This document shows, piece by piece, positions 1 to 13,342 of a DNA stretch of 14,428 nucleotides. Numbering within the stretch: position 1 is the first letter of the stretch; each line of letters starts with the position of its first letter. Source of the DNA: an uncultured Flavobacteriales bacterium (GTDB lineage Bacteria; Bacteroidota; Bacteroidia; Flavobacteriales; Crocinitomicaceae); the NCBI GenBank assembly GCA_946479985.1, contig CAMLIF010000104.1:1-14428 (forward strand). Reading direction: 5' to 3'. Made by a program: the position numbers and the translations under genes. The notes under the pieces are model-generated. The model did no database searches and was not told the DNA's origin. It was given only the letters and a program-made list of their open reading frames with translations.

Positions 1-2783
1 GCAAATTCGTAGGAATAACGTTTGATATCACGCCCGCGTAAAATCGGTCGTATAATTTCGGCAGATTTTGGATCTTCCGCAATTAGTTCATCTTTCTTCT
101 TTCCGTCAATAATAAAAGCCTCATTGTATCCGGTAAGAATACCGCGATTGATCTTGATATCCCAATCCTTCAATGGAGTTCCTACCGCTTCAATTTTGGC
201 TTTGATGCGTTGTTCGATTTCACTCAAAATAATCCAGCTTTCGGAGGTAGCGTAGTTCATTTCGTTCCCCTGTTCCTTCACGTAATCACTCAGTTTGCTC
301 AGTACATTTTCTCTGACAATACAAGCCCTCGTTGTTTGTGTGTTTTTCTGCTTTGAGAACAACAAAATGTTTGTGTCTACGGTTGCCGATTCGAAGATTT
401 TCTGTCCGGCAAAATCAATCAACAAAAGCGGATTTGTGTTTTCAGCAAAGAACTTTCGTGTGTTTTCACCATAGCCAGCCCGCATCCATTTGTTAGAAGT
501 TATGAAGCATAAATGTCCGTTCTCTTTGAGGATTTGCCAGCTTCGTTCGTAGAATAAAGAATAAATATCTCCACTTCTGGCGAAGGTGTTATACCCTTGG
601 GTTTGATACATTTTTGCCAGTTTTCCGCCGTCATTTTGCAACTGAACATAAGGAGGGTTCCCAATCACAATATCAAAGCCATCTTCCAGGCCAAACATCC
701 ATTCCAGGTCAAAACAAGATGCAGTTTCGTTTTGGTCGTAGGGATTCCATTTCGAAAGATTTATAGCATCCTCTGCTGCAAATTCACTGTTTTCCTGCAA
801 TTGTTGTGATAGTTTTTCTCGTAATTTATTATCGCTATCTCGCAACAGTTTTTTTTCTGCAGCATTCCTGACATAAAAGTGTTTTTTTCTGATATCCAAT
901 AGTTCTTTTTTCGTTTCAGATATCTGTAAGTTCTCTAAATAGTATTGTCCGTTCTTAGGTTTTCTCTTCGGTGCAATCAATGTATTCGCCGCCACAAACT
1001 TCGTTTCCAAATTGGGAAGTGAACGCACTCCATAGTTTTCTTTTTCAAAATCAATTCTTTTCTCCTCAACGATCAATGAAATGAAAAAACGAAGTTTGCT
1101 GATTTGTGTAGCAATGGGTTGAATATCTATTCCGTAAATGCACTCTTCGATGAGGTGAAGTTTTTGTTGATAGATCCGCTCCCTCTCTTTTTTCTTCTCT
1201 TCTTCGGTTTCCTTTTCTTTTAAATCGAAATTTAGTTTTTCTAGTATGAGAATCATTTTATTTAGAATTCCCATTGGGAAGGCACCGGAACCACAAGCCG
1301 GATCGAGGATTTTCACAGCACGCAATTCGGTTGCAATGCGCTTCCGGAGAATTGGATCGTTCTCCAGGTCTTCCGATAGCTGTTCTTGTTCAAAGAGGTT
1401 CCGGAGCACTTCTGAACCAACCTCCGGCAGTTTGTTGTTCAGGTGGGCAATCAGGCTTTCGTCCACCATATAGCTTACAATTTCCCTGGGAGTATAGAAT
1501 GAACCCGATTGTTTCCGTGCGCTGTCGCGGGTTTCTTTGTTGAAAGCCCCAAGTAAGTTTTCGAAAACATTTCCCAGCAATTCAGGATCAAGTGCTACCT
1601 GAACTTCGCTGGGGTCGTTTTCTTCCACCGTGAAATTATATTGTTCAAGTATGGGAATAATTCCCTTTTTTTCATCAAAGAAAACACAGTTGGGAATAAA
1701 CGCCCGGTGTTTGAAGTTTCCGTTGGCCGCTCTTTTGTCGTTACGACTGAAACCATCGAGGTAAATTTTCTTCCCATCCGGATTTTCCTTGTCGAGGCAT
1801 TCAAACAATCCTCCATTCAGGAAAGGAACTTTTTCAAAAAGCTTCAGAACATCTTCTTCCGGAATACTAAACAACTCCGCGTAACGGTAGAGTGTTTTAA
1901 GATCACGGGTATTCATGAGTTTTGCGAATGCACGCTCATCAATGGATTTGTTTAATGTTGCAAAAAACAGGTTTTGCAAAATGGCATTATAGAAAGAGCC
2001 GTCGGTTGTACTGGTTGGGTCAAAATCTTTCAGAACGGTTGAAAGGTATTCTTTATTGAACAGGGAATTGGGAACCAACTCTTTTTGTTTAATGAACCAG
2101 CAAAAAAGCAAACGGGTAGTCAAACGAATTAGCTGTACTTCTAATTTTTCCCGGTCGTCTTCCGCAATCGTGGTATCATTAGGATATGTAACTCCAATTT
2201 CCTCGGTAAGTGTCCACTGAAACCATTCAAATAATCGGTTGTAAAAATCCTTGGTAAGCTTTTCAACGGAGAAGGCCTGCTGGATGGTTTCCAGATCGGA
2301 GAATTTACAATTCCCGATGCGGTCTTTGAATGTTTTATTGGTTTCTACCGGATCTACGAAATAGGTATACCGTTTCCACGAAGAATAGCGGTTTTCACCC
2401 TTTTCCCCATAGTTCTTTCGGATAAACGAGAACCGGAAGTTTTTGTATTGGTCGTGATAAACAAAGATGGCACCGTCTTTAAAATCTTCGCGCAGGACTT
2501 TTTTCGCGATATCAAACTGTTTTCTGCGCGAAGAACGCGAAGTAAGCGGCCCATCATACTTACAGGAAAACACTATGAGATCTTCGGAGTTCTCAAAAGA
2601 TGCTTCACCGATTTTGGTAAGCTCAGAGAACTTGTCAAATTTCGTTTCGGTAGTGATGTAGTTATTAATATTCTCATGTTGTGGAACAAACCGCGAGATA
2701 CTTTGAGAAAAAAAATCGGAAAGTGAATGCGTGGAGAAGTTGTGAGTGAATTGAGCTACTGGTGCTGTGTTTAATGCTGCCAT
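1..2783 (-). CDS. Type IIG-like (Eco57I family) restriction-modification methyltransferase, C-terminus cut by window edge
   Basis: About 927 residues are visible. The ATG at 2783 is the first in frame after the upstream gene's terminator, and the frame is open to the left edge. Motif I of N6-adenine methyltransferases (SAM binding) reads DPACGSGAF at residues 494-502. Catalytic motif IV, NPPY, is at residues 709-712 and preceded by GFDIVIG. Before motif I lies the stretch GNVFENLLG, then SGSFYTPREIV, which is typical of this family. After NPPY come INRGILTGYNEAF and ILRGRDIKRY, which fit the start of the TaqI-C-like target-recognition part. Type IIG enzymes join nuclease, methyltransferase and specificity functions in one chain of roughly 1000-1250 residues, so 100-300 residues are probably missing. 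The N-terminal ~200 residues would hold the nuclease, but I could not place a PD-(D/E)XK motif with certainty. A BREX PglX-like or methyl-only enzyme is the alternative. It probably modifies adenine and restricts unmodified foreign DNA. Confidence 0.88.
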   Translation of the reverse strand, partial: MAALNTAPVAQFTHNFSTHSLSDFFSQSISRFVPQHENINNYITTETKFDKFSELTKIGEASFENSEDLIVFSCKYDGPLTSRSSRRKQFDIAKKVLREDFKDGAIFVYHDQYKNFRFSFIRKNYGEKGENRYSSWKRYTYFVDPVETNKTFKDRIGNCKFSDLETIQQAFSVEKLTKDFYNRLFEWFQWTLTEEIGVTYPNDTTIAEDDREKLEVQLIRLTTRLLFCWFIKQKELVPNSLFNKEYLSTVLKDFDPTSTTDGSFYNAILQNLFFATLNKSIDERAFAKLMNTRDLKTLYRYAELFSIPEEDVLKLFEKVPFLNGGLFECLDKENPDGKKIYLDGFSRNDKRAANGNFKHRAFIPNCVFFDEKKGIIPILEQYNFTVEENDPSEVQVALDPELLGNVFENLLGAFNKETRDSARKQSGSFYTPREIVSYMVDESLIAHLNNKLPEVGSEVLRNLFEQEQLSEDLENDPILRKRIATELRAVKILDPACGSGAFPMGILNKMILILEKLNFDLKEKETEEEKKKERERIYQQKLHLIEECIYGIDIQPIATQISKLRFFISLIVEEKRIDFEKENYGVRSLPNLETKFVAANTLIAPKRKPKNGQYYLENLQISETKKELLDIRKKHFYVRNAAEKKLLRDSDNKLREKLSQQLQENSEFAAEDAINLSKWNPYDQNETASCFDLEWMFGLEDGFDIVIGNPPYVQLQNDGGKLAKMYQTQGYNTFARSGDIYSLFYERSWQILKENGHLCFITSNKWMRAGYGENTRKFFAENTNPLLLIDFAGQKIFESATVDTNILLFSKQKNTQTTRACIVRENVLSKLSDYVKEQGNEMNYATSESWIILSEIEQRIKAKIEAVGTPLKDWDIKINRGILTGYNEAFIIDGKKKDELIAEDPKSAEIIRPILRGRDIKRYSYEF

Positions 2784-4045: not shown

Positions 4046-4252
4046 TTAACTCGAGTGACAATTTCTACAACAGTAATAGCACCCATTTGATTTTGGATAG
4101 GTTTTTTTTGATTCCTTGACTGCTGGTTCACAAGAGTCAAAATTCCCAAGATACATTCGGTTTTCTTCCGATGGCATAAAAGAACATTCCAATTTATGGA
4201 CCTCATGATCTCCGTTTGCCTGTGCTTTTTTGTTTACATAATAGTAAGCCAT
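4046..4252 (-). CDS. Small Cys/His-rich protein, possibly metal-binding (68 aa)
   Basis: A 68-residue protein starting MAYYYVNKKAQANGD. It has GDHEVHKLEC (His16, His19, Cys23), a central LGNFDSC (Cys41), and a C-terminal GCYYCCRNCH with Cys58, Cys61, Cys62, Cys65 and His66. The spacing of these residues suggests a zinc-ribbon or knuckle. The pattern resembles a small Bacteroidota protein family that I remember only as uncharacterised, and the Cys cluster is loosely like short metal-binding DNA-repair modules. The ATG at 4252 is the only sensible start. The overlapping 68-codon frame at 4000-4206 is rejected because it lacks this pattern. The gene follows the HerA gene on the same strand with about 146 bases between them, so it may be co-transcribed or separate. 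Confidence 0.72.
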   Translation of the reverse strand: MAYYYVNKKAQANGDHEVHKLECSFMPSEENRMYLGNFDSCEPAVKESKKTYPKSNGCYYCCRNCHSS

Positions 4253-4398: not shown

Positions 4399-6222
4399 TC
4401 AATCCACCATCAGCAACTTACAAGGCGACGGATCAATTGCCACTAACATGGATCTTGACAAGCTTGGTGTAGAAACAATTGCCTGACCGGGTGCCAGGTT
4501 CGGAAGCCGGCTCCAGAGATTGTTGTCGACTCCGCCAATGGAGCGTTTCAGGCGACTGACTACGTTTGAATCGCTGATCTTGTGCAGGATGAAACTGTTT
4601 ATGAGGCCCAGAACTTCGTCCGGTAAGTGTTGCGGTAACTGGGTTACGAAAACAAGTCCTAACCAGCGCTTTCTTCCTCTGCGGGCAATGCGCGCAACTT
4701 GCTGGAAGAGGTTAGACATCTTTGCGATTTTATCGCTCGACAGGAATTCGTGTGCTTCCTCAATAATAATGGAAACCGGGGTAGGGGATTTCTCCTGGCT
4801 CATAGCCAATTCGTAAGCAACTTCCTGAGCTTCCTGAATTCCTTTCAACAGATCGGTGATGACCAGGTTATTGATGATGGTGGAATCCGAATCGCTTAAG
4901 TCAACGATGGTCATGTTTCCCGGTTGTATCAGTTCTGAATACGGAATGGTTTGCGCATTGCGGTTGTCGAACAGATTGGTTCTGTGTAACTGCCAAAGCT
5001 TGGAGAGTAAAGCATTCCAGCTGATCTCGTTATTTGTCTCGACAGAATTTATGCGGGCTTTTACCTTGCCAATATTCTCTTTTAATATGGGATTATAAAG
5101 AGTACCCGACTCTTTGGATCCAACTTTGTCCCGAATGAAACCGGCAATGTCTATCAGCATAGAGAGCGTTAATTTCGGCCAACCTGTTTCAAACTCGTCA
5201 ATTTCAATAGCTTCTGATTCCTGCTCTTTAGTGGGGTAAATTCCAACGTCACGAAGGATGAGTTTTGCTGTATCATAGGCTTTAAAAAAGCGGCCCAGCT
5301 GAGCTTCTGTTAAACCAAGAATGTCGGCAACGGCATAGGGTGATAAAGAAGAAAACTTCAGTGTAAACGGGAGAATGTTTGTTCCTTTTTTTGCACGTGT
5401 ATCTTTTCCGTGAAGGTGCAGCACGCGAATATTACTGATTCCTTTTGCCTGGATTCCGCGGTTGCTCAAAAGTTTCTGCATTGTTGCGTCAGTAGTTGGT
5501 TCACCAACATGCGTGTATTCTCCTTCCGTATCGATCACGATAGTTGCAATTCCTTTTTCCTGAAACTGGCACATTAAGCCGGAGATAGTTGTAGACTTAC
5601 CGCCGCCGGTTGTTCCAAGAATTCCAATGTGCCGGGGCAAAACGGTTTTGGTGTTTGAAGGAATTCCAACTTCAATATCTTCATGACCGATTGCCATTCC
5701 CAGCGTGATTCCCGGTTGCTGTTTCACCTTCAGCACATCTGCTGTTTCTTCTTTGCTTAACACAAATACGGGACTGTTCGGAAGCGGGCGGAATCGAGGC
5801 GGCATAATAATATCCTCTTTCAATTCACCGATCAGCTCGATCTGCACTTTTCCATGAAAATTGGGCATGAACAATGCGCCGTTAATGGAAGTAGTAACAA
5901 TCATCGGCGAATCTCCGCGAATGCCATCGGGTTCATGAAATGGTCCGGCAACAACAATTCCGCGATAGACTCTGCCGTCGCCACCATTTTCTGCTGTACG
6001 ACTGCGAATTTCGATGATCGAATGCGCTCCTATTTCCCGGATATGTTTTTTGGGAATTAAAACGGTGATCAGGTTGTCTTCACTGTTTGGCAGGTCAAAC
6101 ATGGTCATTCCGGTTGCACCTATGCAATTTGCATCTTCTTCCCATTCACCGCCATTTGCGTTTATTTCCTCCATAATATGTGCTGGAAATATTATTTCTC
6201 CTTTATTATCGTGTGTTTCCAT
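4399..6222 (-). CDS. HerA/FtsK-type DNA-translocating ATPase (DUF87)
   Basis: A 607-residue ATP-binding protein. Walker A is GTTGGGKS (residues 203-210), preceded by LPRHIGILG. A conserved VIDTEGEYTH follows at 229-238. Walker B is SIIIEEAHEF (484-493). The arginine-rich VARIARRGRKRW (509-520), likely the arginine-finger region, and FVTQLPQHLP (525-534) match the bacterial HerA-like helicase family. Residues 1-170 form a beta-rich HAS-barrel-like N-terminal part. Such proteins assemble as hexameric rings that pump double-stranded DNA and work with a partner nuclease. Here the partner is the NurA-like gene just upstream, separated by one base, so the two should be translated together. The role is inferred to be DNA processing, probably of invading DNA, because of the surrounding protease, regulator and restriction genes. 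A housekeeping repair role is possible. Confidence 0.9.
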   Translation of the reverse strand: METHDNKGEIIFPAHIMEEINANGGEWEEDANCIGATGMTMFDLPNSEDNLITVLIPKKHIREIGAHSIIEIRSRTAENGGDGRVYRGIVVAGPFHEPDGIRGDSPMIVTTSINGALFMPNFHGKVQIELIGELKEDIIMPPRFRPLPNSPVFVLSKEETADVLKVKQQPGITLGMAIGHEDIEVGIPSNTKTVLPRHIGILGTTGGGKSTTISGLMCQFQEKGIATIVIDTEGEYTHVGEPTTDATMQKLLSNRGIQAKGISNIRVLHLHGKDTRAKKGTNILPFTLKFSSLSPYAVADILGLTEAQLGRFFKAYDTAKLILRDVGIYPTKEQESEAIEIDEFETGWPKLTLSMLIDIAGFIRDKVGSKESGTLYNPILKENIGKVKARINSVETNNEISWNALLSKLWQLHRTNLFDNRNAQTIPYSELIQPGNMTIVDLSDSDSTIINNLVITDLLKGIQEAQEVAYELAMSQEKSPTPVSIIIEEAHEFLSSDKIAKMSNLFQQVARIARRGRKRWLGLVFVTQLPQHLPDEVLGLINSFILHKISDSNVVSRLKRSIGGVDNNLWSRLPNLAPGQAIVSTPSLSRSMLVAIDPSPCKLLMVD

Positions 6223-6223
6223 A

Positions 6224-7390
6224 CTATGATTTTAGTTTTGATAATACATCTGCCCGTGTGTGCGCCTGATCAATGGACGCCATGAAATCATTTTTCCCGA
6301 AGGCGTTTTTACAAAGATTTTCTGCCAGATCAAGCAGCATTGGCGTCCCCGAATGCAATTGCAGTGCGCTATCCGCCATGGCAATTAAAGCTGCCGTTTG
6401 AATGTGATCAACATGGCAATAAAATATTTGCGGCGGTGAGAGTTTGGAGACTTTGTAAACTCCAACGGCAATTTGATCACCGGCTATTTTTGCGAACTGT
6501 TCGTATTCGTTTTTGATATCCAGCCGGGTATTGCCCGAATTAACCATTTGTACCATCTTATCTTTCATTGTTTCGACGATCAGGTATTCGAACGGATGAA
6601 GTGCATTGCCAAGTACCCAAAGTTCGGGCTGTGCGCACGCCTGAACATACACAAAACGTTCGTGATTGATCAGCCTGGTCATCAGATCAATGGATTTGTC
6701 TTTTACCTCCTCTCGGTTGGCCCAAAAACCCATCATGAGTTCATAAGGTGCCGGAAATCCATAGCCTAACAGCCATTTGGAGTTAGCTTTTTCAAGCAGA
6801 ATAGCACGTTCTGCGTATGCTCTGATACTGCGCATTGCCAGACTGTTGAGTTTGGTTTTGTCGTCATGTTGTCTTCGCTCAATTAATGCCACAGCTTCCT
6901 CTAAAGAGCTGCAGTTGTTGAATCGCAAATCACGCCGGAACAACTGGTGAGAATAACTTCCGTGCTGCCCCTGATAGTTAACCAGGCAAATCCCCATTTG
7001 GGTAATGGAAATTGGCAGTGAATCGTAGGTTATACTGAAACTTCCGCATGCCGTAACAGCACCATTGAAGAGAAAACCTTTGTGAATTTTCTCTATGAGC
7101 TCAATGGTCGTATCGGAATGTAAGCCGGCATGAGGTACAAGCGCGCTTTTCTCAACCAATGGAAACAATTCTTTTCGTATAACCTCCTGTGATTCCAATT
7201 CGCCCTTCTTTGCTGCGAATAGTTCTTTTTCAATCTCGGAATAAAGTCTTGCAAGATTCCTGTCTACCTCCCAGGTTTTAATATTGATCGCGTCCGTATA
7301 GTCTTCCCCATATAGTTTTTTGAAGTAGTCAATGGACTGACGCCCATCGTTATTTTGGGGATTTCCGGTTTCGGGAGTAATGTTTTTCAT
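6224..7390 (-). CDS. Divergent NurA-like protein, HerA partner
   Basis: A 388-residue protein. NurA nucleases pair with HerA for DNA end resection in archaea and some bacteria. The similarity is in overall plan. A hydrophobic strand ends in ACGSF (114-118), where NurA normally has DGS. Then come RRDLRF, the helix MRSIRAYAERAILLE (186-200) and GYGFPAPYELM (209-219), in the place of the usual DG-L segment. The C-terminal SGTPMLLDLAENLC (347-360) resembles the NurA end motif with GxP and AH/AD. Two acidic positions normally used for metal binding appear replaced by Cys115 and Tyr210, so it may be inactive or use other residues, for example Asp339 in AMADSA or Asp354. The gene lies 50 bases after the protease gene and one base before HerA. 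Assignment rests on the HerA adjacency plus partial motifs; an unrelated fold is possible. Confidence 0.55.
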   Translation of the reverse strand: MKNITPETGNPQNNDGRQSIDYFKKLYGEDYTDAINIKTWEVDRNLARLYSEIEKELFAAKKGELESQEVIRKELFPLVEKSALVPHAGLHSDTTIELIEKIHKGFLFNGAVTACGSFSITYDSLPISITQMGICLVNYQGQHGSYSHQLFRRDLRFNNCSSLEEAVALIERRQHDDKTKLNSLAMRSIRAYAERAILLEKANSKWLLGYGFPAPYELMMGFWANREEVKDKSIDLMTRLINHERFVYVQACAQPELWVLGNALHPFEYLIVETMKDKMVQMVNSGNTRLDIKNEYEQFAKIAGDQIAVGVYKVSKLSPPQIFYCHVDHIQTAALIAMADSALQLHSGTPMLLDLAENLCKNAFGKNDFMASIDQAHTRADVLSKLKS

Positions 7391-7440
7391 AACAGCATAT
7401 AGTTTCTATTTAATTCCGGAAATAATTCAGAAGTTCGACA

Positions 7441-8193
7441 TCAGAGTCCGAGTTTATCCAGGAATGAAGGCCCATTGGTTACAGAATAGGCAAGTTCTGA
7501 TGCATACTGACGAGCTACTTCAGAGGGAATCCCGTATTTACCGATTAATATTTCCTGGCTTTTCCGTGTAAACTGTGAATAGGTGAGTCGTTTGGTCGAT
7601 GAAACGGTTTCATTAATGACTTTTGCTCTGGGAGCCAGCAGTTCCAGTGCCAAATAATCGGCTTCGTTTTCTGAGTTGAAATTAGACCAGCTCAGGAAAG
7701 AACCATTGCCGTTGTTTTCGATTAAAAAAGTATATGGATCAATGGTTATCCCTTTAATAACAGAAAGCGCCAATTGTGGATTGCTTGCCGCTAAATTGCC
7801 GTTCAGCACATCCTCAATCTCTTTCCCCAATGCCAAAATGGCTTTTTCTTTCGGGACATGGTAATCAAGCAGGAAATGGCTCACTTCATGTGCAACCGTG
7901 AACCGCTGCTGGATCTCGTTTTGCGAATCCTCAACAAACATAAATACTGACCCGGTTTTGATCATCAATGCCCCGTGAAGGCCCCGGTCATTCACGTCGA
8001 ATTCAATAGAGATAGTTCTTTCCGCTAACCATGTTTCTATTTTTTGCAGACTCAGTTCTTTGATCATAACCAGATCAATGATAAGTGATGCATCAACCGC
8101 ACTTACAATATCGAAGCTGTCGCGGTACACCTGATCTACAGTTGACCAGAATTCACGCGCTATTCTCTCAATTTGCGGTTTGCTGAATCTCAT
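7441..8193 (-). CDS. ImmA/IrrE family zinc metallopeptidase
   Basis: A 250-residue protein with the zinc-protease signature FTVAHEVSHFLLDYH (98-112; His102, Glu103, His106). ENEADYLALELLAP (175-188) follows and supplies the third zinc ligand, as in ImmA and IrrE/PprI. A strand before the motif (GALMIKTGSVFMFV, 74-87) fits the fold. About 60 N-terminal and 60 C-terminal residues fall outside the core. Family members cleave a specific transcriptional repressor on a stress or DNA signal: ImmA on the ImmR repressor of ICEBs1, IrrE on DdrO in Deinococcus. The gene overlaps the upstream 120-residue regulator by four bases (ATGA at 8190-8193), so that protein is the obvious candidate substrate. It is cytoplasmic, with no signal peptide. 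Confidence 0.9.
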   Translation of the reverse strand: MRFSKPQIERIAREFWSTVDQVYRDSFDIVSAVDASLIIDLVMIKELSLQKIETWLAERTISIEFDVNDRGLHGALMIKTGSVFMFVEDSQNEIQQRFTVAHEVSHFLLDYHVPKEKAILALGKEIEDVLNGNLAASNPQLALSVIKGITIDPYTFLIENNGNGSFLSWSNFNSENEADYLALELLAPRAKVINETVSSTKRLTYSQFTRKSQEILIGKYGIPSEVARQYASELAYSVTNGPSFLDKLGL

Positions 8194-8552
8194 TTCCCGT
8201 TTTTCTTGCCTTCTTCCTTATCTCTGGCAGCCATCAGAATACTTCCCGTAGGTACGGTGAACTTCATTATAGTATTAACATGCTTGATCACTTTAGTCAA
8301 TTTGCTCATATCAATATTGACATATTCACTAATGATTGCCAGACGTGGTTTAAAATCAGATTCAGTGACGTCAGGAGATTTGCATAATGCCAGTTTGTAA
8401 TATCGATCAAGGGAGCAGTCAAGAACTTTGAGCAATTCCTGTTCTGATATTTTTTCGAATTCACGGTACATTTTTAGAGTATAGGCCATGAACTCATGGT
8501 TATCCTCAACGCGTGCAATGGCGCTTTTCAAGAAATTCAGTTTAGTGATCAT
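8190..8552 (-). CDS. Small helical protein, probable HTH regulator and candidate protease substrate
   Basis: A 120-residue, mostly helical, basic protein. Residues 34-95 contain the stretch KISEQELLKVLDCSLDRYYK, then the segment FKPRLAIISEYVNIDMSKL. This resembles a pair of helix-turn-helix-like units of the XRE type, although no textbook signature is complete. The C-terminal tail (ARDKEEGKKNGK) is charged and disordered. It overlaps the sigma-like gene upstream and the ImmA/IrrE gene downstream by ATGA at both ends. ImmA/IrrE proteases are normally encoded beside the repressor they cut, so it is inferred to be that partner. Its DNA target may be the 16-base palindrome at 9223-9238. It could instead be an anti-sigma-like or adaptor protein. 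Confidence 0.6.
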   Translation of the reverse strand: MITKLNFLKSAIARVEDNHEFMAYTLKMYREFEKISEQELLKVLDCSLDRYYKLALCKSPDVTESDFKPRLAIISEYVNIDMSKLTKVIKHVNTIMKFTVPTGSILMAARDKEEGKKNGK

Positions 8553-9187
8553 TTTAATAAGTTTTTAATCTTGTTTTTGATGTCATTTCTTTCAATCACT
8601 TTCTTAATGCGGTCTTTATGCTTCTTTACTACATTACTCTGTTCAGAAACCGTCAAACTTGCAATTTGCAATTCATCACTGTAGTCATCCGTTTCTCTTA
8701 TATTGGAAAGAACCATAATCGCCAGGGAAATATCCTTCTCGGTATGGAAATGATCTTCAAGTACTTTTCGAATTATTGTCATAGTCTCATCAGATAGAAT
8801 AGTGGAATCTGCAGAACTGTGTGATTTCAATATACTATTCCCGTTTTGTGTCCATTGTTCGACATCTTCGAGCAAATTTTTACCTAAAGAATGTTTTTCT
8901 TCCTTTTTTAGGATGTTTTGGAGATCACGCAGTGCAGCTAATTTTAAAAAACCATATAATGCATATCGTTCCGGGTTATAGGAATTCGGATTAAAATAAT
9001 AGCTCAGAAAGGCGTCATTTACTGCTCTGGAAATAAAGTCGTTATCTTTTTTGGCGATCGTTTGATATCTGAATTCTAGATTTCCAGTTATCCTGATTCC
9101 ATAGTTCTCATATAACCTTGACAAAGCTGTATCCTCTCCATTCTTTACCGCAAGATGAAGTTCCAATTCTTCGGGAGTAGCTTTCAT
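8549..9187 (-). CDS. Sigma-70-like (ECF-like) transcription factor
   Basis: A 212-residue protein with the layout of a small sigma factor. Residues 12-30 (VKNGEDTALSRLYENYG) resemble the start of region 2. NDFISRAVNDAFLSYYFNP (49-67), then the segment YALYGFLKLAALRDLQNILKKE (75-96), match the core of region 2, where the usual sequence is DxxQExFLxxW with a WLxxIAxNxAxDxxR helix. After a linker, residues 172-201 (LQIASLTVSEQSNVVKKHKDRIKKV) resemble the region 4.2 helix-turn-helix. Similarity is weak enough that it may be a degenerate sigma, or only a sigma-related regulator. It starts the clear operon and overlaps the next gene by ATGA (8549-8552). I infer that it directs RNA polymerase to the operon or to defence genes. 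Confidence 0.65.
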   Translation of the reverse strand: MKATPEELELHLAVKNGEDTALSRLYENYGIRITGNLEFRYQTIAKKDNDFISRAVNDAFLSYYFNPNSYNPERYALYGFLKLAALRDLQNILKKEEKHSLGKNLLEDVEQWTQNGNSILKSHSSADSTILSDETMTIIRKVLEDHFHTEKDISLAIMVLSNIRETDDYSDELQIASLTVSEQSNVVKKHKDRIKKVIERNDIKNKIKNLLK

Positions 9188-12917: not shown

Positions 12918-13157
12918 AATGAACTCGTAAGCGAGGGCAATGTACTCGAGTACAACCTCAATGAACTTGCAGACAAGGGCAATGAACTCCCAGACAATGG
13001 CAATGTGCTCGCATGCGAACCCACTGAACTCTCAGACGAGCCCAATGAACTCCCAGACTAGGGCAATGTACTCCGCGGCGTGACCAATGTACTTCCCGAT
13101 GAGCCCAATGAACTCCCGGACGTGACCAATGAGCTCGCAGACGAGGCCGCTGAACTA
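12918..13157. repeat. 21-bp tandem repeat array (about 11 units)
   Basis: Eleven consecutive 21-base units, with consensus close to AATGAACTCCCAGACGAGGGC, run from 12918 to 13148, followed by a partial unit. Units are degenerate but keep AATG(A/T)ACTC at exact 21-base steps with no spacers. Because 21 is a multiple of three, each frame is a seven-residue repeat. On plus it is NELPDEG, broken by TAG in unit 7. On minus it is EFIGLVW, broken by one TGA and ending at a stop at 12876-12878. On minus in another frame (12958-13203) it is a His/Trp/Arg-rich run with no stop and an ATG. None has a convincing start plus an intact frame, so I treat the array as a minisatellite or decayed repeat gene. 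Apart from a palindrome, AAGATTAATCTT (12859-12870), nothing else is seen between 12855 and 12917. Confidence 0.85.
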
Positions 13158-13167
13158 ATAAATCTGT

Positions 13168-13199
13168 ACCAAATGACAAGAAAATGTCTTTTTTTTGGT
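13168..13199 (+). terminator. Possible hairpin terminator after the tandem repeat
   Basis: ACCAAA (13168-13173) pairs with TTTGGT (13194-13199), and inside it GACA (13175-13178) pairs with TGTC (13185-13188), followed by eight T. The stem is interrupted and AT-rich, so this is a weak call. It would end transcripts coming from the response regulator or the repeat. Nothing further is seen up to the gene start at 13343. Confidence 0.3.
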
Positions 13200-13342
13200 T
13201 CATCCAAAACGTGATTTTGAAAATTTACTAGCAGGGTTCATTCAACAAAACACCGAATTTAACGCTCGTTAACAATTGGACAACAGCACGTTGACACAAT
13301 TTTCGGATGCTGTCTTGCGTTAGTCTCAGAAATAAAAGTATT

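Follow-up and report, generated by a model that had tools for sequence, protein, structure and literature searches.

In Sir2-HerA systems, a HerA ATPase is encoded next to a dedicated partner protein. The same arrangement is described for DUF4297-HerA, whose authors leave open what keeps a toxic HerA complex inactive (PMC11291478). We describe a cassette that also joins a HerA ATPase to a dedicated partner, a NurA-like protein, and that lies on a 14,428-nucleotide contig (CAMLIF010000104.1, assembly GCA_946479985.1; this whole stretch is the window) from an uncultured Flavobacteriales bacterium of the Crocinitomicaceae. Unlike DUF4297-HerA and Sir2-HerA, the cassette brings its own putative switch (a sigma-70-like factor, a small regulator, and an M78 metalloprotease) and usually a DNA methyltransferase, and its partner protein has no match to DUF4297 or Sir2 in Pfam, PADLOC, or NCBIfam. 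We propose, with a probability of about one half, that it is an inducible, modification-linked (methylation-linked) HerA DNA-translocase system against invading DNA, with a CapP/PprI-like switch.

Pairs of a small regulator and an M78 protease are known from CapH-CapP and PprI(IrrE)-DdrO. Single-stranded DNA activates PprI and CapP (PMC10904395, PMC13373217), and Arg118, in the cleavage-site loop of DdrO, matters (PMC10904395). The cassette resembles these systems in that the gene for a small, helix-turn-helix (HTH)-like regulator adjoins the protease gene, in that the protease matches the PADLOC capP model, and in that the regulator has a conserved Arg-containing motif, comparable to Arg118 of DdrO (PMC10904395). 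It differs in that a dedicated sigma factor gene lies ahead and in that the regulator, of 120 amino acids, has only a short tail past its conserved Ala-Ala-Arg (AAR) motif.

Other described systems have a HerA-type motor. In Thermus thermophilus, the tdtA operon of ICETh1 encodes a type IIG enzyme, a NurA-like protein, an FtsK/HerA ATPase, and a PF01555 N4/N6 methylase; the operon is needed for transjugation, and mutants in the NurA-like protein or the type IIG enzyme reduce transjugation (PMC5365140). By this published description, tdtA has the same kinds of parts as the cassette, but it is a four-gene operon on an integrative element, and its description names no regulator, sigma factor, or M78 protease (PMC5365140). 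In Pyrobaculum, a nurA-csm6-herA trio is linked to CRISPR (clustered regularly interspaced short palindromic repeats) (PMC3396285). NurA and HerA are also counted among putative CRISPR auxiliary genes (PMC10910872), and herA and nurA are co-activated by Csa3a (PMC10013973). The Pyrobaculum trio, like the cassette at some loci, places a NurA-HerA pair beside CRISPR, but it is archaeal and includes csm6, and the passages on it mention no protease switch or methyltransferase (PMC3396285). In the sections consulted, recent surveys of HerA-centred systems give other part lists (PMC10853773, PMC12839542), and our literature search, with preprints and most subscription papers outside its reach, returned no paper describing this gene set.

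Gene order and distribution of the cassette

In the window (numbered as in the source stretch), the cassette occupies 9187-4399 on the minus strand. Five tightly packed open reading frames (ORFs) are transcribed in the order sigma-like factor, regulator, M78 protease, NurA-like protein, and HerA, with two 4-base ATGA overlaps, one 50-base gap, and one 1-base gap at the junctions. The original prediction, which was made from the window's sequence, had proposed these five genes as one unit, and ORF calling confirmed their coordinates, shared strand, and close spacing.

We scanned one genome per species with the family of the 388-amino-acid NurA-like protein as the key, and this yielded 38 loci. 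Because the ORFs of the fetched loci were chosen mechanically, longest first, and some picks in GC-rich loci were spurious antisense frames, we sought the cassette genes again with six-frame searches. The cassette genes that were detected keep the same order on one strand in 38/38 loci, so the arrangement is not due to chance and the five genes are indeed one conserved unit. All five were detected in 36 loci. (The incomplete loci are L026, where the contig ends before HerA, and L031, where the sigma gene was undetected.) The loci, many of them from metagenome-assembled genomes, come from about ten phyla overall (Bacteroidota, Chloroflexota, Planctomycetota, Acidobacteriota, Actinomycetota, Thermodesulfobacteriota, Nitrospirota, Pseudomonadota, Thermomicrobiota, Lindowiibacteriota, and KSB1); Bacteroidota, which had been suggested as the setting for neighbourhood comparison, is too narrow. 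The divergent locus L082 also retains the set, with a methyltransferase in front and a weakly matching regulator (E = 3e-4) that the six-frame locus search missed.

As the loci had been fetched via the NurA-like protein, we made an independent search keyed on HerA. Among 301 Chloroflexota genomes, 16 encode this HerA at E ≤ 1e-100, and the NurA-like gene adjoins it in all 16. (In a seventeenth genome with the NurA-like family, G648, the gene is partial and lies where its contig stops.) So, for this family, we did not see the HerA/NurA pair standing mostly alone, which is the pattern that the original prediction had named as speaking against it. Pairs of a Pfam NurA (PF09376) and a HerA without the other three genes do exist (L076-L079), and they belong to other families. 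One of these, from Chloroflexota (L076:4862-9393), comprises a PF09376 NurA that is barely past the cutoff, a HerA, and a related methyltransferase, with sigma factor, regulator, and protease undetected; its layout is like that described for Thermus tdtA.

The cassette is sporadic rather than core, so the other pattern that the original prediction had named as refuting (a set of core genes in all strains at one locus) was not seen either. Counting the seed genome of each set, the NurA-like family is carried by 2/395 Bacteroidota genomes (both already among the hits of the 38-locus scan), 17/301 Chloroflexota, 4/246 Actinomycetota, 2/199 Acidobacteriota, and 1/246 Planctomycetota (the seed alone). 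Each of 14 chosen carrier genomes has a single copy. Named carriers include Hufsiella ginkgonis (L004), Daejeonella sp. (L002), and Fibrella rubiginis (L012, a carrier with the motif-I aspartate discussed below). In a quick tree of the NurA-like protein and HerA, Bacteroidota form one group, with 4 changes for Chloroflexota and 2 each for Planctomycetota and Actinomycetota, which is compatible with some transfer without proving it. One contig from a viral collection (L075) carries the five genes, preceded by an HsdR-like gene and followed by a methyltransferase gene on the opposite strand. The ORF for HerA is split in two in L001 (6413-8240) and L012 (11152-12993), and there are several frame breaks in the sigma and HerA genes of L036 (8084-13022); these breaks are due to either assembly error or decay.

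The putative switch and the HerA/NurA-like pair

The protease is of the ImmA/IrrE type, as predicted: it matches Peptidase_M78 at E = 1e-5, which passes the cutoff, and PADLOC capP at E = 5.8e-12, and HExxH is present in 41/41 protease matches. The small regulator has a similarly constant feature. AAR is found near the C terminus of 40/40 regulator matches; the next residue is D or E in 37, and L022, L023, and L024 have A or P there. In 27 separate aligned regulators, 6-35 residues remain after AAR. In L029 and L031 (both Actinomycetota), regulator and protease are fused, with AARD between the two parts. These features make the protease-regulator switch of the original prediction plausible, and cleavage of the regulator at AAR may be proposed by analogy with DdrO. 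The HTH-like label of the regulator is weakly supported: HTH families match 1 to 4 of 27 relatives (best E = 2.8e-4), and the window's regulator matches no HTH family and no credible family of its own. The window's sigma-like protein has no Pfam sigma match, and its NCBIfam sigma match (4.8e-4) falls far short of the model cutoff. In its family, however, Sigma70_r2 is hit at E ≤ 0.1 by 12 of the 32 proteins aligned (best 1.9e-7). Its identity as a sigma-70 factor is thus supported at the level of the family and is weak for the window protein alone.

The identification of HerA is straightforward (DUF87, E = 5.9e-20; PADLOC HerA, 2.7e-29), and both Walker motifs are present in the window protein. 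Its partner was harder to place. The 388-amino-acid protein has 506 homologues at E ≤ 0.001, and the window copy has no Pfam family. PF09376 matches 0/39 members at E ≤ 0.1, nor does it match the L082 copy at 0.05. When profiles were compared with those of canonical NurA proteins from Chloroflexota, a long colinear alignment was obtained in which motif I and the C-terminal G-x-P motif coincide, but none of the E-values (0.029, 0.083, and 0.2) reaches significance, and 0.2 falls within the range of controls (0.17-0.65; also 0.31 and 0.35). A sequence search of solved structures with the family profile gave nothing meaningful. Given the lack of PF09376 matches, the name NurA-like rests on weak colinear similarity and on the place beside HerA.

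Motif I of NurA (DGS-like) includes an aspartate that we take to be catalytic. Most loci have CDGT or similar at this position, and the aspartate is present in 32/39; the window has ACGS, and the aspartate is lost in 7 loci that form one clade (the window and L001-L006). On the tree this loss occurred once. Among 236 listed homologues, the aspartate is present in 121: 5 of the 120 best from the window-keyed search and 116 of the 116 further ones from the profile search. As the remainder of the protein stays strongly conserved in the clade without the aspartate, it is not simply decaying there, and the window protein is possibly a NurA-like protein that does not cut. The weak assignment to NurA, together with the lost aspartate, makes a simple HerA-NurA nuclease effector doubtful here. 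Compared to the NurA-HerA end-resection pair, the cassette also has the partner gene upstream of herA, with motif I and the C-terminal motif aligned in a weak full-length profile; it is unlike that pair in its lack of PF09376 matches, in the loss of the aspartate in the window's clade, and in the sigma factor, regulator, and protease that are attached. All five of the cassette genomes that we also searched for PF09376 (G006, G429, G445, G457, and G466) have a separate NurA on another contig.

Partner genes and neighbours

A DNA methyltransferase is the sixth partner in 29/38 loci. It lies upstream of the sigma gene on the same strand in 25, divergently upstream in two (L028 and L034), and downstream on the other strand in two (L029 and L031). 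Thus, the five genes of the original prediction are real, but the usual unit has a sixth that it had overlooked. The protein from L002 matches PF01555 and UPF0020, and the motifs DP[MF]xGSGT and TSPPY are each found in 26/28 aligned methyltransferases. In 9/38 loci the gene was not detected within reach (L033 and L035 have less than 300 bases upstream and cannot be judged). Pairwise distances for the NurA-like protein, HerA, and the protease correlate with each other (r = 0.72-0.75, 29 loci), and those for the methyltransferase track the other cassette genes less (r = 0.34-0.50), so it looks more exchangeable. A plasmid of Allorhizobium pseudoryzae that is typed as conjugative (L083, 10545-13191) has two back-to-back methyltransferases that match the cassette profile, with the other cassette genes absent; since the subfamily occurs there without a cassette, the methyltransferase alone is no cassette marker.

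Downstream of the window's cassette is a type IIG enzyme (PADLOC REase_MTase_IIG, 1.3e-112; Eco57I, 6.3e-41). It is 74% identical to the product of L001:8933-12337, and no other locus showed a close relative. As the window and L001 have other flanking genes in common as well, the window's cassette sits in a locus that is shared with a relative.

In 9/38 loci, members of Cas1 and/or Cas3 clusters are found downstream on the same strand. Pfam or PADLOC names a Cas protein in seven of these (L013, L015, L024, L025, L030, L035, and L037); for L028 and L032 the calls come from the clustering, and any cas gene too different from these clusters could have escaped the count. Such genes are present in 8 of the 29 loci that extend at least 3 kilobases (kb) past HerA. 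The start of the Cas1 gene in L024 is 2 bases past HerA, and L024 is the only locus with a candidate CRISPR array (by a simple script that seeks exact 18-base repeats). In the 14 chosen genomes, there are 21 Cas1 match rows (some of which are pieces of one gene) in about 78 megabases (Mb), and Cas1 is within 12 kb of the cassette in 6 genomes; ten of these genomes have a Cas1 match, which in four (G004, G006, G007, and G014) is solely on other contigs. Since the first Cas1 hits preceded the choice of these genomes, the proximity serves as illustration. Of 68 near neighbours with 230 or more amino acids, just 5 are Cas1, which is nonetheless the Pfam family seen most often. Other neighbours include E1-E2-like, PsyrA, NOV_C, UvrD, SF2, and SNF2 proteins and a weak match to LmuB. 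None of the window's scanned ORFs is a CRISPR gene. So the defence-island setting that was proposed originally is backed by the type IIG enzyme beside the window's cassette and by CRISPR and other defence genes near some loci, but there are metabolic neighbours too.

Two small ORFs in the window deserve mention. A Cys-rich ORF lies between the HerA and type IIG genes and is doubtful as a cassette member. An 81-amino-acid ORF at 12958-13203 (minus strand) has VHWxRLxVHW-like repeat units and is apparently a frame across a short tandem repeat. A promoter scan found fewer sites than in shuffled sequences (6 versus a mean of 12.0), so we claim no promoter.

Table 1. Cassette genes and adjacent features of the window, in order of transcription.
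Feature	Position	Strand	Evidence or remarks
Sigma-70-like factor, 212 amino acids, first cassette gene	8549..9187	-	ORF; NCBIfam PRK12519, 4.8e-4, short of cutoff
Small regulator, 120 amino acids, C-terminal motif LMAARD	8190..8552	-	ATGA overlap with sigma gene; weak HTH matches in relatives
M78 (ImmA/IrrE/CapP-like) metalloprotease, 250 amino acids, HExxH	7441..8193	-	Pfam and PADLOC
NurA-like protein, 388 amino acids, motif I is ACGS	6224..7390	-	Homologues and weak colinear profile comparison
HerA/FtsK-superfamily ATPase, 607 amino acids, Walker A GTTGGGKST, Walker B IIIEEAH	4399..6222	-	DUF87, PADLOC HerA
Cys-rich ORF, 68 amino acids, between HerA and type IIG gene	4046..4252	-	Pfam: no family
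Type IIG restriction-methyltransferase, 927 amino acids up to window edge	3..2783	- (cassette strand), downstream	PADLOC, Pfam

Possible roles of the cassette

If the cassette is an inducible system against invading DNA, then it might work as follows. In the off state, the HTH-like regulator would silence the operon or hold the sigma factor. Single-stranded DNA made during infection or damage would activate the M78 protease (as for PprI-DdrO and CapP-CapH), which would cut the regulator near its AAR motif. The dedicated sigma factor would then drive the operon and perhaps also the genes after it. HerA, which has the motor motifs and presumably forms a hexamer, would pump DNA together with its NurA-like partner, and the usual methyltransferase, or the type IIG enzyme in the window, would mark self or recognise sites. 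The NurA-like protein may cut DNA in the relatives that have the motif-I aspartate; in the window's clade, cutting would have to be done by other residues, the type IIG enzyme, or host nucleases. We favour this explanation because of the conserved order, the adjacency of HerA and the NurA-like gene, the frequent methyltransferase, the HExxH and AAR motifs and the capP match, the Cas neighbours, the sporadic distribution, and the published activation of PprI and CapP by single-stranded DNA.

Several observations weigh against it. The HTH-like nature of the regulator is weakly supported, and the regulator of L082 does not have AAR. Nuclease activity of the NurA-like protein is doubtful in the window's clade. 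The cassettes of the window and L001 have no methyltransferase, and tblastn found no remnant of one in either. Most near neighbours (63/68) are something other than Cas1, and metabolic genes are among the neighbours. A plasmid collection gave no match to the NurA-like protein of the window or of L013, and a phage collection gave none to that of L013, the sole query. Finally, in Thermus, parts of these kinds serve DNA donation (PMC5365140). An unlikely alternative is a widespread cassette for immunity or gene transfer whose DNA pump is turned on when proteolysis of the regulator frees the sigma factor. The partner of the pump would have the NurA fold and, throughout the Bacteroidota clade that lost the catalytic aspartate, would be a non-cutting adaptor. 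The address or the cut would be supplied by an exchangeable module (a methyltransferase, a type IIG enzyme, or CRISPR), so that one switchable motor would serve several defence systems.

The main rival is a DNA-donation machine like tdtA, because ICETh1 puts the same kinds of parts in one transjugation operon. HerA would export genomic DNA that the NurA-like protein and the type IIG enzyme or methyltransferase prepare, and the stress switch would turn export on. The type IIG enzyme beside the cassette in the window and L001 fits this idea, and so does L076, with its NurA, HerA, and related methyltransferase but no switch genes. We consider it unlikely, as the likeness to Thermus is to a published description rather than a sequence comparison, the cassette's switch resembles those of immune operons, and Cas1 and helicases lead the neighbour families; no integrase appears among the 25 of 104 families listed, which does not exclude them. 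It is quite unlikely that the cassette is a CRISPR helper, in which HerA and the NurA-like protein would process DNA for spacer acquisition or clean-up, timed by the regulators. The Cas1/Cas3 genes downstream, which show at least 7 state changes on the tree (32 rows), the proximity of Cas1 in 6 of 14 genomes, and the published CRISPR links of NurA and HerA (PMC3396285, PMC10910872, PMC10013973) all argue for such a role, but 29/38 loci have no Cas1/Cas3-cluster member (though some stop soon past HerA), the window has no CRISPR gene among its scanned ORFs, and Cas1 is only on other contigs in four of the ten Cas1-matching genomes, from a set that was not random.

A damage-induced operon for DNA repair by end resection, as for HerA-NurA elsewhere, with an IrrE/DdrO-like switch, would account for the HerA family, the NurA-like partner, and the IrrE-like protease. 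This seems very unlikely because of the rarity of the cassette in Bacteroidota and because a separate PF09376 NurA was present in all five cassette genomes searched for it; also, partners such as a methyltransferase or CRISPR are not usual for repair. A core operon for repair is likewise unlikely, given how rare the cassette is in the genome sets.

If our favoured explanation is correct, then the cassette puts a HerA motor under a private sigma factor and a protease switch of the DNA-damage type, and this would be one way in which a toxic HerA complex can be held inactive until it is needed. In about ten phyla, a single motor module would combine with partners of three kinds: methyltransferases, a type IIG enzyme, and CRISPR. 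It would also become directly testable whether operons of HerA, NurA-like proteins, and methylases serve for DNA defence or for DNA donation.

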